NCBI GenBank assembly: GCA_001304015.1
Contig: LJUY01000054.1
Location: 1 to 19,563, forward strand
Length of the DNA: 19,563 nt
Source of the DNA: a candidate division Zixibacteria bacterium SM23_81
GTDB lineage: Bacteria; SM23-81
Direction of reading: 5' to 3'
Translations under genes and position numbers: made by a program
Part shown: positions 653-4,290 of the stretch, in pieces
Layout of the letters: the number at the start of each line of letters is the position of its first letter
Numbering within the stretch: position 1 is the first letter of the stretch
The notes under the pieces: model-generated
Told to the model about the DNA's origin: nothing
The model's database searches: none
What the model saw: only the letters and a program-made list of their open reading frames with translations

Positions 653-871
653 TTACGTATTCCATCGGGCACTGAGGTCTTCTATCAGTTTCCTGCGCAA
701 TTCTTCATCTGCTTTGAGACCCTTAATCGCCTTCCAGGCCTGAGAACAGTTCTTGTAATCCACATCCACCAGTCGGTGCAGAACTCGGTCCAGCTCCTTT
801 TTATTCTCCTGGGTGACCTGGATGCCCACCTCGGCGAAGATATCCCCTATATGACGAAAATAACAGGACAT
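653..871 (-). CDS. Small conserved hypothetical protein
   Basis: A 72-residue cytoplasmic protein with no known function that I can name. It begins MSCYFRHIGDIFAEVGIQVT and is mostly helical and charged, with a VDYKNCSQAWKAIKGL segment containing a second Cys. From memory, small proteins with an MSCY[FM]RH start and a conserved 'YKNC' segment recur in several anaerobic bacteria; I could not check this. The frame stays open upstream to an ATG at 937, giving 94 residues. I prefer 871 because GGAAGG lies 8 bases upstream of it and because the longer form would overlap the Nfu gene by 23 bases. It is the last gene of the NifU-Nfu group, so an Fe-S or metal-related role is possible but is only guilt by association. 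Confidence 0.7.
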   Translation of the reverse strand: MSCYFRHIGDIFAEVGIQVTQENKKELDRVLHRLVDVDYKNCSQAWKAIKGLKADEELRRKLIEDLSARWNT

Positions 872-914
872 ATGAAGGCCTTCCGATCGGTTATGGCACC
901 ATAGAGAGATGAAA

Positions 915-1136
915 TTAGGGCACAGCCTGCACTTCACTGACTTCGGGGATTTGCTCCTTCAAAAACTTCTCGATGCCCATCTTGAGGGTCAGCTGAGACA
1001 TGGGGCAACCCTTGCAGGAACCCTGAAGCCTCACCTTGACGATCCCCTCCTCCACATCCACCAGCTCCACATCCCCACCGTCCGCCTGCAACTTCGGACG
1101 AATCTTATCCAGCGCCTCCTGGACTTTCTCCTTCAT
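915..1136 (-). CDS. Nfu-type Fe-S cluster scaffold/carrier (NifU C-terminal domain)
   Basis: This is a 73-residue stand-alone NifU C-terminal (Nfu) domain. The signature is [15 protein letters not shown] near residues 12-26, followed by the cluster-ligating CKGC (Cys41, Cys44) inside [16 protein letters not shown]. Family knowledge: two monomers bind a 4Fe-4S cluster between their CxxC motifs and deliver it to apo-proteins in the cytoplasm. The length matches single-domain Nfu proteins. The start ATG at 1136 lies 8-9 bases after GGAGG; an in-frame GTG two codons earlier (1142) would be only 2 bases from it. It begins 27 bases after the IscU-type gene and is probably co-transcribed with it. 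In NifU proper both domains sit in one chain; here they are separate genes. Confidence 0.93.
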
Positions 1137-1163
1137 GCTCACATCCTCCTTCCGTCCGATGGA

Positions 1164-1619
1164 TTACTCTTCTTTGACGTGTGCTTTCTCGCCCTCGCCC
1201 ATATGCAGGTGCGCGTCTGGCTTGATTTTCACCGGAGAAGGCAATCCCCTGCGTTTAAAGTAATCGTCGATGGCCGAGTGCAGGGCTTGCTCGGCCAGCA
1301 CTGAACAATGCATCTTCATGGGTGGGAGGCCATCCAGAGCCTCTGCGACGGCCTTGTTGGAGATTTTCAGGGCCTCCTCCAGGCTCTTGCCCTTGACCAT
1401 GTCCGTGACCATACTGGAGGTGGCGATGGCAGCTCCACAGCCAAAGGTTTTGAACTTGGCGTCGGTGATCACGTCATCCTTGACTTTGATGTATAGCTCC
1501 ATGATGTCCCCACACACCGGATTGCCCACATATCCGATTCCATCCGCATCCTTAATCTGGCCCACGTTGTGCGGATTGGCAAAATGTTCCATCACTTTGG
1601 TGCTGTATTTCATGCTCAT
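1164..1619 (-). CDS. IscU/NifU N-terminal Fe-S cluster assembly scaffold
   Basis: This 151-residue protein is the cytoplasmic scaffold on which 2Fe-2S clusters are assembled with sulfur from a cysteine desulfurase. The three cluster ligands are visible: Cys36 in NPVCGD (with the adjacent Asp38 that controls cluster release), Cys61 in FGCGAA and Cys105 in MHCSVL. LPPMKMHC resembles the LPPVK chaperone (HscA)-binding motif. After the usual end of IscU (about 125) there is a tail with His, Glu and Lys (DAHLHMGEGEKAHVKEE) that could bind metal. I take ATG 1619 because GGGGG lies 5 bases before it; ATG 1613 is also possible, and an upstream in-frame ATG at 1646 has no ribosome site. No cysteine desulfurase (NifS/IscS) is present in the window, so the sulfur donor must be elsewhere. 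Confidence 0.95.
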   Translation of the reverse strand: MSMKYSTKVMEHFANPHNVGQIKDADGIGYVGNPVCGDIMELYIKVKDDVITDAKFKTFGCGAAIATSSMVTDMVKGKSLEEALKISNKAVAEALDGLPPMKMHCSVLAEQALHSAIDDYFKRRGLPSPVKIKPDAHLHMGEGEKAHVKEE

Positions 1620-1696
1620 GATTTCCCCCTTTATATGTGATGCCACCGCTGAGGGAAAGAGGCTCTGACGCCTCCAAAATTCAAAGATCTGAAAAG

Positions 1697-1744: not shown

Positions 1745-2260
1745 TCAACTCATCACCTTACGCCTCCAAGTACAGATTAAGCGATCTCGGCGATAATCCA
1801 GCTGGACCAGCTCCCAGCCCTGGGCGCCTCTTGTATTCAGAATGGACTTAAGCACCTCGACATTGGTGTCCGGTGCGTCATCGAAAAAACAGACCCCCTG
1901 GGCATCACAGATGATCGCCCGCTCCATCTCATCAGAACCCGCTGGCCCGAAACCCATTCTCTCCCTGATGGCCATCATCTCAGCCACGGTGTGAATGGTT
2001 ATATCGTGCTCCCAATGGTGCCCGGCCTTGGGACTTTCCTTCTCAGGCTCCAGGACCAGAGGTTCGCCCTTCAGGAGCTGATACCTCTCCATGAGGATCC
2101 TCTCGTGCTCCATCTCGTCATCAACCAACCTCAGAAATGTCTCCTTCACCTCCGCATCCTCGGCCAGGCTCGCACCTCTGGAGTAGACTTCCTGGAAATG
2201 TCTCTCCGATTGGACCGCTTCCATCAAAATTTCCAGTACCTGACTCCTCGATTCCGTCAT
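1745..2260 (-). CDS. Half-ferritin (rubrerythrin-like) protein with DUF4177-like C-terminus
   Basis: This 171-residue cytoplasmic protein appears to have two parts. Residues 5-65 form two helices with ferritin-like diiron ligands: Glu19 in helix 1 and Glu49-x-x-His52 in helix 2 (DDEMEHERIL). A full ferritin/rubrerythrin site needs two such sets, so this would have to dimerise. A middle segment (75-125) has HHWEHDITIHTV with four His and is of unknown role. Residues 130-171 contain GAQGWELVQLDYRRDRLICTWRR, resembling the C-terminal half of DUF4177. The start has GGGAGG 6 bases upstream. It is the last gene of the phosphatase-hydrolase cluster, 32 bases after the HD gene. The helices are clearly homologous to the N-terminus of the phosphatase at 2949-3944. 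Function is unknown; iron or peroxide sensing is inference. Confidence 0.85.
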   Translation of the reverse strand: MTESRSQVLEILMEAVQSERHFQEVYSRGASLAEDAEVKETFLRLVDDEMEHERILMERYQLLKGEPLVLEPEKESPKAGHHWEHDITIHTVAEMMAIRERMGFGPAGSDEMERAIICDAQGVCFFDDAPDTNVEVLKSILNTRGAQGWELVQLDYRRDRLICTWRRKVMS

Positions 2261-2292
2261 GTTTGCCTCCCCAGCTCAGGAATTCTGGCCTT

Positions 2293-2952
2293 TCACACGA
2301 TCTTGGTACCGTTAATCACCAGCTCAAAGGAACAGCCCAAAAACTCCGCCGCCCTCCGAGACATCAGCATGCGCGACATGAAGATCTCGAAATACTCCAT
2401 CACCGGGGAGATCTCTGTGTCAATCTCCAAGGCCAGAGTGATAATCTTATTGGCCCTGTCGATGTTCAAGGTCGACTTCTTGGCCCCGTAGTTCACCCGA
2501 TCGTGGATGTCGAACTTGATGAATTTGGGGTTGCGCACTCTGCTGCTATGTACGTCCGCCTTATCGCTGAGGATCAGGGCTGCGGAGATGCGGCTCACAG
2601 GACTGCCGTCTTCTTCGTGGTGATTGCCGATGGCCGCCATAATTTCCGCCAGATCCGCCGAATCCATTCCCATACGGGAGAGAATTCCATGGGCCAGAAG
2701 GGCTCCTGTTTGAGCCTGGGCTTCCCGGTTGATCACGTTGCCGATATCGTGCAGATATCCGGCGATGGTGGCCAAATTGATCTCTCTCTCGGAATATCCC
2801 AGTTCCTGCAGAATCCTCCCCGCCACCTTCCCCACCCTCTGGGCGTGGCGGTCTCCATGTTCGGTATAGCCGATGACTTCCATGGCCTGATCGGCCATGC
2901 TAATGTAAGACTTCACTTCGGTATTCTGACGAACGTCCTGCCACGTGATCAT
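2293..2952 (-). CDS. HD domain (HD-GYP-like) metal-dependent phosphohydrolase
   Basis: A 219-residue protein with the HD superfamily ligand pattern: His36 (HGDRHAQRV), His68-Asp69 (YLHDIGN), His88, His111-His112 (GNHHEEDG) and Asp130 (ILSDKAD). The HHEEDGS segment and following helix resemble HD-GYP enzymes, which hydrolyse cyclic-di-GMP, but the diagnostic GYP tripeptide is replaced by SPV. The substrate is therefore uncertain (a nucleotide or other phosphoester). The C-terminal 75 residues (from about 145) form a mixed alpha/beta region not assigned to a family. Its ATG overlaps the stop of the phosphatase gene by ATGA, with GAGGT just upstream, so translation is probably coupled and the two proteins are made in a fixed ratio. 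Confidence 0.9.
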   Translation of the reverse strand: MITWQDVRQNTEVKSYISMADQAMEVIGYTEHGDRHAQRVGKVAGRILQELGYSEREINLATIAGYLHDIGNVINREAQAQTGALLAHGILSRMGMDSADLAEIMAAIGNHHEEDGSPVSRISAALILSDKADVHSSRVRNPKFIKFDIHDRVNYGAKKSTLNIDRANKIITLALEIDTEISPVMEYFEIFMSRMLMSRRAAEFLGCSFELVINGTKIV

Positions 2953-3944
2953 CTGCCTACCTCTTTTAACTTAGCCACCGCCAAAGTGGCTTCATCTGTA
3001 AGCGCTTCATTCTTTAAAAAGTCATCAAGAGCACCGAAAACCGACTTGACAATGCCTCTGGCGTCTTGGGATCGGCTCTCGATCAGGCTCTCCACCAGCC
3101 GTTGACGACCAAACTCCTCTTCCCGTGGATTGAAGGCCTCCATGATACCGTCACTGAACAGGACAATCATGTCGCCGGCCCTGAGTGAAGCCCTCTCAAG
3201 GCTGTATTTTTGATCTCGATCCAACCCGATGAGCAGTTGGTTCCCTTCCAGGGGACGCTCTTGACCCTGTGCAGAGTCGATGAGCACCGGCAGCTCGTGT
3301 CCCGCTGAGACATAACTCATCTCACCCCGTTGGAGATCTAACAGCACATAACATAGTGTCACAAAGCCTGCGGCTTTCTGACACAGTGGGTGAAGATTTC
3401 GATTTAAGCTCTCTACCAGCCTGTCGGCCTGCGACAGCCGCTCCCAGTCATCATCGGCGATCTCGCCGAGCACCTGCCGCACCCCGGCCTTCAGCGAGAC
3501 CGCCTCCATACCATGGCCCATGACATCAGATAACAGAAGGCCCAACTGACCATCTGCTCCCTCAGGGAGATGCACAGGATAGCTCTCCACGTAATCGCCA
3601 CTTATGAAGTGAGTGGGCAACGAGACGGCGGCCAGATCGATCCCGGGCACTGTTCTGACACGTTGAAATGGCAACTCCGCGGGGAGATGATATCGGATGC
3701 GGTTTGCCTCCAGCAATGAATCGTCTTGCTCCTGCGAATCGGGGGAGAGCAGCTTTTTCACGTTGGCGAATTCTTGCACTAGAATTCGCCGATGTTTCCT
3801 CTCCTCCTCGGCCAGCTGGCGCAGGAGAGCTGAAGTCTCCGGATAAGGCGACTGTTTGCTCGCGTCGGAATAATACCTGAACGCTTCCGTCTCCCGGCGG
3901 ATGGCGCCCAGAATGATATCCAGAATCACATCGTCCTTACTCAT
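2949..3944 (-). CDS. Half-ferritin / SpoIIE-type PP2C phosphatase fusion
   Basis: This 331-residue protein combines two domains. Residues 5-65 are two ferritin-like helices with Glu18/Glu20 in helix 1 and Glu48-x-x-His51 (EEERKHRRIL) in helix 2, only half of a normal diiron bundle. Residues 95-328 are a SpoIIE/RsbU-type PP2C phosphatase. Its metal-binding acidic residues are Asp117 (SGDY), Asp140 (SDVMGHG), Asp265 (FSDGIMEAF) and Asp317 (TDEATL), and YVSAGHELPVL is also typical. Family knowledge: such phosphatases dephosphorylate anti-sigma-factor antagonists (STAS proteins) in partner-switching pathways. No STAS or anti-sigma kinase gene is in the window. I infer that the ferritin-like part is the sensory input, through iron or oxygen. 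The start lacks a strong ribosome site. The stop overlaps the HD gene. Confidence 0.92.
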   Translation of the reverse strand: MSKDDVILDIILGAIRRETEAFRYYSDASKQSPYPETSALLRQLAEEERKHRRILVQEFANVKKLLSPDSQEQDDSLLEANRIRYHLPAELPFQRVRTVPGIDLAAVSLPTHFISGDYVESYPVHLPEGADGQLGLLLSDVMGHGMEAVSLKAGVRQVLGEIADDDWERLSQADRLVESLNRNLHPLCQKAAGFVTLCYVLLDLQRGEMSYVSAGHELPVLIDSAQGQERPLEGNQLLIGLDRDQKYSLERASLRAGDMIVLFSDGIMEAFNPREEEFGRQRLVESLIESRSQDARGIVKSVFGALDDFLKNEALTDEATLAVAKLKEVGR

Positions 3945-3984
3945 TGTTCAATTCCACAACCAAGGATCGAAGGGAGTCGACTCG

Positions 3985-4008
3985 AAAAAAGAAGGGGATA
4001 TTATCCCC
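3985..4008 (-). terminator. Probable intrinsic terminator after the rubredoxin-like gene
   Basis: On the minus strand GGGGATAATATCCCC (3994-4008) is a perfect dyad, followed by TTCTTTTTTC. It lies 52 bases after the rubredoxin-like stop. The short stem (5-7 bp) suggests partial termination, which would let the downstream phosphatase gene be expressed at a lower level from the same promoter. Confidence 0.55.
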
Positions 4009-4060
4009 AACACTGAATGAACGCAATGCTCCAAGGAGAACCGAGCAGATTCGATTCCTC

Positions 4061-4171
4061 TTAAGCCTCTTTTTTAAATCCATCTTTGGGTGCGCCACAA
4101 GCTGGGCATTCTTTCGGGCGGCAGCGCCCCTCTTCTTTATAACCGCACTTGGAGCAAATCCATTTCGGCAT
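4061..4171 (-). CDS. Rubredoxin-like zinc/iron ribbon miniprotein (36 aa)
   Basis: A 36-residue protein starting MPKWICSKCGYKEEG and continuing with ECPACGAPKDGF. Four cysteines, Cys6-x2-Cys9 and Cys22-x2-Cys25, form the two knuckles of a rubredoxin or zinc ribbon. The second knuckle, CPxCGAPK, is the one seen in rubredoxin-like tails of rubrerythrins. It is shorter than classical rubredoxin (about 52 residues) and matches small rubredoxin-like domains that occur alone or fused to rubrerythrin. The ATG is preceded by AGGAGAGG at good spacing. It has a consensus-like promoter at 4262-4290 and its own terminator. As a neighbour of two half-ferritin proteins it could be the electron-transfer partner that a rubrerythrin would normally carry in the same chain; this is inference. 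It is easily missed because of its size. Confidence 0.88.
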   Translation of the reverse strand: MPKWICSKCGYKEEGRCRPKECPACGAPKDGFKKEA

Positions 4172-4261
4172 GATAGTCCTCTCCTGGAAAAGAGCTTCAA
4201 TGAGAGATAGGTTGGACTCAACCGTTATCGGTGATGCTGACTAGCCAACTTGGTTATCTTA

Positions 4262-4290
4262 TTTATAACTAAAAAAGTAGGTTTTGTCAA
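4262..4290 (-). promoter_or_regulatory. Sigma70-type promoter for the rubredoxin-like gene
   Basis: The minus strand reads TTGACA (4285-4290) and TATAAA (4262-4267) with a 17-base spacer containing a T6 run. A start site near 4254 would give a leader of about 80 bases before ATG 4171. A small dyad GGTTG-AGTC-CAACC lies in the leader. It is one of the two best promoters in the window and probably also feeds the phosphatase-HD-ferritin genes downstream. Confidence 0.78.

Follow-up and report, generated by a model that had tools for sequence, protein, structure and literature searches.

A half-ferritin domain joined to a SpoIIE-type phosphatase as a candidate iron- or oxygen-responsive sensor in a candidate division Zixibacteria bacterium

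The window analysed here is the whole of contig LJUY01000054.1 (19,563 nucleotides; assembly GCA_001304015.1) of the candidate division Zixibacteria bacterium SM23_81, whose genome comprises 3.07 Mb and whose phylum was represented by four genomes. Four genes stand in a row on its minus strand, as both the reading frames and the domain matches confirm, and the second of them encodes a protein in which a two-helix half-ferritin is joined to a PP2C-type phosphatase of the SpoIIE kind. The row continues downstream on the same strand with an IscU-like and then an Nfu-like gene. The features are as follows:

4262..4290, minus strand: promoter TTGACA-17-TATAAA, an exact pattern with 0 matches in 200 shuffles, kept in the same-family genome G001
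4061..4171, minus strand: RCKP-type rubredoxin-like miniprotein of 36 amino acids with four cysteines (NCBIfam NF045720, rubredox_RCKP; Pfam RUBY_RBDX)
3994..4008, minus strand: terminator-like hairpin, GGGGATAATATCCCC + TTCTTTTTT, with a T run, separating the miniprotein gene from the phosphatase gene
2949..3944, minus strand: half-ferritin/SpoIIE (PP2C) phosphatase of 331 amino acids (PF07228, E=1.4e-39; PF02915, E=5.5e-8)
3747..3944, minus strand: EncFtn-like half-ferritin sensor of this protein, residues 1-66, with the predicted ligands E18, Y25, E48 and H51 (from model and profile)
2952..3650, minus strand: PP2C/SpoIIE catalytic domain of this protein, residues 99-331, with D117, D140, D265 and D317 invariant
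2293..2952, minus strand: HD-domain hydrolase of 219 amino acids (PF01966, E=1.2e-8), in ATGA overlap with the phosphatase stop
1745..2260, minus strand: protein of 171 amino acids with a half-ferritin (residues 1-65; PF02915, 22.8 bits) and a DUF4177-like domain (residues 108-171)
1164..1646, minus strand: IscU/NifU_N scaffold gene directly downstream of the second half-ferritin (PF01592, E=4.8e-50)
915..1142, minus strand: Nfu-type protein, C-terminal NifU domain (PF01106, E=2.5e-32)

The catalytic half of the phosphatase scored 136.5 bits for PF07228 (cut-off 25), and the matches of its relatives to this family were also above the cut-off. These relatives were sought in the phylum of the window, then, by a profile built from two sequences, in 386 sampled genomes, and finally in the phyla of the new matches. 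Seven further full-length proteins were found, 32-37% identical to the window protein in the eight-member alignment; one belongs to the phylum of the window (genome G002), two to a second phylum (G058 and G386) and four to a third (G243, G396, G399 and G407). Since a further search of 318 genomes, overlapping with the 386-genome sample, added no member to the eight, the family is rare across the sampled genomes. In a tree built from the PP2C domains only, the eight members formed one clade with a support of 100/98, and the other SpoIIE proteins included, from the same and from other genomes, fell outside it. Because the PP2C domains alone form one clade, and in view of the conserved residues, the fusion is most simply read from the sequences as one old event kept by selection rather than as a chance assembly. 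The joining of a half-ferritin to a SpoIIE phosphatase, which the preliminary description had proposed, has therefore held up, being conserved over three phyla with a diiron-type sensor.

Several other candidates for membership were rejected. Rhizobium plasmid SpoIIE proteins aligned over nearly the full length, and the one tested (L159) fell outside the clade; for the matches in Bacteroidota and Streptomyces, the alignment covered only or mostly the phosphatase domain (L013 was checked); and in G258, G028 and G178, long reading frames that matched a half-ferritin proved to be ordinary rubrerythrin-like proteins with a spurious upstream reading frame. A different kind of ferritin-fold/phosphatase fusion was observed in L156 (2973-3929, G273:C260), where a protein of 318 amino acids combines a two-repeat rubrerythrin domain (PF02915, E=6.7e-14) with an NLI/FCP1-type HAD phosphatase (PF03031, E=1.9e-16).

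The four aspartates D117, D140, D265 and D317, which we take to be the metal-binding aspartates of PP2C enzymes, are invariant in all eight members of the alignment. One could suppose that the protein is mainly an iron-handling enzyme, a rubrerythrin-like ferroxidase or peroxidase that carries the PP2C domain as a secondary passenger, and the ferritin-like half is indeed more conserved than the remainder: the mean pairwise identity is 49.5% for the sensor and 64% for its second helix, against 41% for the phosphatase and 25.5% for the linker. However, the catalytic site has been kept throughout the family too, and we regard a passenger phosphatase as most improbable.

An AlphaFold2 model made without an alignment, of which the phosphatase half was unusable, gave two antiparallel helices for the sensor (residues 3-31 and 35-66); for most of these residues, the predicted local distance difference test score was about 80-88. 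The Foldseek matches shown for this model were nearly all encapsulated ferritins (EncFtn) or EncB/EncC. A second structural comparison placed EncB on top but gave unrelated helical hairpins similar Z values as well, so the assignment of the fold rests on the Foldseek ranking together with an independent sequence-profile search, in which the sensor profile matched the rubrerythrin-like Pyrococcus furiosus protein 2fzf (E=8.4e-10), EncFtn 5n5e (E=1.1e-6) and EncB (E=2.3e-4) among the structures of the PDB. The sensor matches only positions 2-61 of the 137 of PF02915, and the chain contains no rubredoxin domain. E18, Y25, E48 and H51 are invariant in all eight members and are among the few invariant positions of the sensor; in the window protein, their spacing (+7/+30/+3) equals that of E32, Y39, E62 and H65 in EncFtn. 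In that protein these iron ligands come from two chains, and Fe2+ drives the assembly (PMC5012862). The sensor is, as judged from its sequence, a two-helix half-ferritin with a predicted diiron ligand set.

The best evidence for an oxygen- or iron-related role of the phosphatase comes from G002, a genome of the same phylum as the window, where the relative lies inside a large same-strand oxygen-stress and iron cluster (L018 590-9748, G002:C42) with a Fur-family gene at its head. This gene is followed by MutM, an RseC-like protein, a double thioredoxin-like protein and then the phosphatase, after which come a TrmO-like protein, a flavin reductase, a rubrerythrin-like protein, a peroxiredoxin and a rubrerythrin; the cluster continues with a hybrid-cluster (prismane) protein, a desulfoferrodoxin, a ferritin and another rubrerythrin-like protein.

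The preliminary description had regarded the four genes of the window as one iron- and oxygen-sensing system, in which the phosphatase and the second half-ferritin would act together with an HD enzyme working on a second messenger and a rubredoxin-like electron donor. Parts of this picture are sound. The genes share one strand; the TTGACA-17-TATAAA promoter is as good as claimed, given its absence from the shuffled sequences and its conservation in one genome of the same family; the phosphatase and HD genes do overlap by ATGA; the miniprotein is rubredoxin-like as described, scoring 49.5 bits for NF045720 (cut-off 45) and E=1.5e-8 for RUBY_RBDX; and elsewhere some half-ferritin genes adjoin genes for an HD-type dGTPase (G066, G207) or a rubredoxin (G230). 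The system itself is not conserved, as HD, DUF4177-type half-ferritin and RCKP genes were found at none of the seven other phosphatase loci. That the neighbours do not stay together across genomes argues against the module, not against the phosphatase, and we consider a joint four-gene system very unlikely. The idea of a split rubrerythrin, which formed part of it, draws slight backing from the small half-ferritin gene of G230 that directly precedes a rubredoxin gene.

The family of the HD gene is widespread (38 of 290 sampled genomes) and often adjoins tgt, yajC and secDF, or purM or priA genes; in 43 stretches examined, it was never found beside a half-ferritin phosphatase elsewhere. The protein had been called HD-GYP-like, but it contains no GYP motif (HHEEDGSPVS), and its match to HD_5 is below the cut-off whereas that to the plain HD family PF01966 is above. 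The missing motif and the housekeeping-type gene contexts rule out an HD-GYP second-messenger enzyme, and the second-messenger role is unsupported because the protein is not of this kind. In G001, of the same family as the source genome, the order is LptD, HU, a TTGACA-17-TATAAA promoter closely similar to that of the window, and directly after it the HD gene, alone behind the promoter, with the RCKP and phosphatase genes absent between them. These two genes could have come to stand between promoter and HD gene either by insertion in the window or by loss in G001. A single transcript over the row is not assured, because the terminator-like hairpin with its T run at 4008-3994 lies between the miniprotein and phosphatase genes; the density of such hairpin sites in the region is no higher than in shuffled sequence. 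No Rfam elements were found in the window.

The second half-ferritin, encoded at 1745-2260, has E19, Y26, E49 and H52 at the same spacing as the EncFtn set. Its description as a half-ferritin/DUF4177-like protein stands for the first part, where PF02915 is at the cut-off with 22.8 bits, and less so for the second, where DUF4177 reaches 19.5 bits, below the cut-off. A structure predicted without an alignment was too poor for use (predicted local distance difference test score of 45), and no full-length relatives were found in the other genomes (290 searched). Its two parts have separate counterparts. The N-terminal half resembles small stand-alone half-ferritins of 77-84 amino acids (L097 6433-6675, L098 6425-6676, L099 6285-6539 and L096 6371-6604), whose gene overlaps the IscS gene in G090 with IscU next, lies beside HD-type dGTPase genes in G066 and G207, and directly precedes the rubredoxin gene in G230. 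The C-terminal part resembles small DUF4177-like proteins encoded near ferritin genes in G105 and G123 (L095 6742-6984 and L100 6323-6553, with the motif LN..G..GWELV).

The whole protein may belong with the iron supply for the iron-sulfur (Fe-S) assembly genes IscU and Nfu downstream of it. A 94-amino-acid reading frame (653-937, minus strand) without a Pfam match overlaps the end of the Nfu gene and may be a real small Fe-S-cluster gene. A service to the Fe-S assembly genes would be the more likely function of the half-ferritin/DUF4177 protein; it might also form mixed pairs with the half-ferritin of the phosphatase, either as a titrating subunit or as an iron donor that links the phosphatase to Fe-S assembly. 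The two proteins have the same E-Y-ExxH set and stand in one row, the second directly before the IscU and Nfu genes, and in G090 a small half-ferritin gene stands ahead of IscU, overlapping IscS. On the other hand, the partner gene is present at none of the seven other phosphatase loci, and the partner is without full-length relatives in any other of the 290 genomes, so that mixed pairs seem an unlikely basis for the control of the phosphatase.

The explanation that we prefer, held with middling confidence, is that the EncFtn-like half-ferritin serves as the sensor of the PP2C phosphatase, with iron-dependent pairing and oxidation as the switch. In RsbU-type switching, an ordered helical linker dimerises the phosphatase domains, and the inputs named for such phosphatases are RsbU_N, PAS, GAF, response-receiver and HAMP domains (PMC12143880). 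A half-ferritin suits a switch of this type because without the pairing of two copies it has no diiron site. Since a two-helix half-ferritin cannot build a diiron site alone, we infer that two protomers must pair, as EncFtn does with ferrous iron, and this pairing would fix how the helical linker is arranged and hence the phosphatase-domain dimer. One state would form with ferrous iron and be converted to the other by oxygen, peroxide or loss of iron; iron binding could either activate or inhibit the phosphatase. The phosphatase would then dephosphorylate an anti-anti-sigma (STAS) protein, and a sigma factor or regulator would be freed from an RsbW-type kinase for an oxygen or iron stress response. 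STAS proteins and RsbW-type kinases are encoded in all eight genomes of the family; another contig of the source genome carries a GAF-SpoIIE gene with an RsbW-type gene after it, and STAS genes are located elsewhere. The phosphatase probably reports iron or oxygen stress. The stricter proposal, in which the ferritin fold itself is the direct switch and the dimerisation of the half-ferritin builds both the diiron site and the active PP2C dimer, passing iron and oxygen status to a sigma-factor cascade of the partner-switching kind with no heme, Fe-S cluster or Fur-type protein involved, is put forward tentatively, a little short of evenly balanced.

Several observations weigh against an iron- or oxygen-sensing half-ferritin. 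Of the seven other loci, a single one has an oxidative-stress neighbourhood; in G243, a BLUF blue-light sensor gene (L035 8451-8882) lies directly upstream of the phosphatase and a low-molecular-weight phosphatase (LMW-PTP) gene overlaps it downstream, and the loci of G058, G386, G399 and G407 have other, unrelated neighbours. The sensing role suggested in the preliminary description is thus backed by the Fur, peroxiredoxin, rubrerythrin, desulfoferrodoxin, ferritin and hybrid-cluster genes around one relative, but not by the other loci. STAS and RsbW proteins are common, and no cognate pair adjoins the phosphatase of the window. One genus-level group has an extra residue between the two helices in the alignment. 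The E-Y-ExxH spacing is also present in many ordinary rubrerythrin-like proteins, and because these share it, the pattern would mark the diiron half-bundle or superfamily rather than EncFtn or encapsulin cargo specifically.

Some of the same observations would fit a half-ferritin that is a constitutive dimerisation platform, with a structural or vestigial metal and with the signal coming from a bound partner protein, as RsbT acts on RsbU. RsbU itself dimerises through a helical domain at its N-terminus and has a partner that binds it, and the BLUF and LMW-PTP genes flanking one member make other inputs possible. However, the diiron ligands are among the few invariant positions of the sensor, RsbU_N gave no Pfam match in the phosphatase at E<=0.1, and no neighbour is common to all members. 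We regard such a platform as improbable and retain the iron-dependent switch, which predicts that the activity of the phosphatase depends on iron and oxygen.

If true, a half-ferritin input would be a new sensor class for RsbU-type phosphatases with a simple physical mechanism, in which the metal site would exist only in paired protomers of phosphatases that are thought to be switched by pairing. It would also show a possible link of iron and oxygen stress to sigma-factor control in little-studied bacteria. No publication on the control of a PP2C/SpoIIE phosphatase by a ferritin or rubrerythrin fold was found in the open-access literature, and such a sensor is apparently undescribed. The stressosome of Vibrio reportedly passes an oxygen signal into a partner-switch system of STAS proteins and kinases; its sensor is a heme-containing RsbR, and it is not known to include a half-ferritin phosphatase.

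Among known systems, the protein resembles RsbU, RsbP and RsbZ in its N-terminal sensor, short linker and C-terminal PP2C domain, and in the STAS and RsbW partners encoded in the genome. The inputs named for these phosphatases are RsbU_N, PAS, GAF, response-receiver or HAMP domains (PMC12143880), whereas that of the window protein is a half-ferritin. This domain is like EncFtn, EncB and EncC, its best structural matches, in being a two-helix half-ferritin with E, Y and ExxH ligands, but EncFtn is an enzyme in its own right, carried as encapsulin cargo, and the domain here is fused to a signalling phosphatase. Rubrerythrins share the PF02915 match, and a rubredoxin-like protein is encoded next door to the phosphatase; they carry a complete four-helix bundle and a rubredoxin domain in one chain, however, and the phosphatase has neither. 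A further parallel is offered by the bacterial hemerythrin domains, in which diiron sensing of O2 or redox state is coupled to signalling outputs (PMC9388753); all the described diiron sensors of this kind that we found have the hemerythrin fold. In DcrH, Bhr-DGC and Bhr-HD-GYP, as would be the case here, a diiron four-helix bundle is the O2 or redox sensor of a signalling output. They differ in their fold and in a histidine-rich ligand set contained in one chain, and their outputs are MCP, cyclic di-GMP enzymes or an ATPase, whereas the output of the window protein is a PP2C phosphatase.

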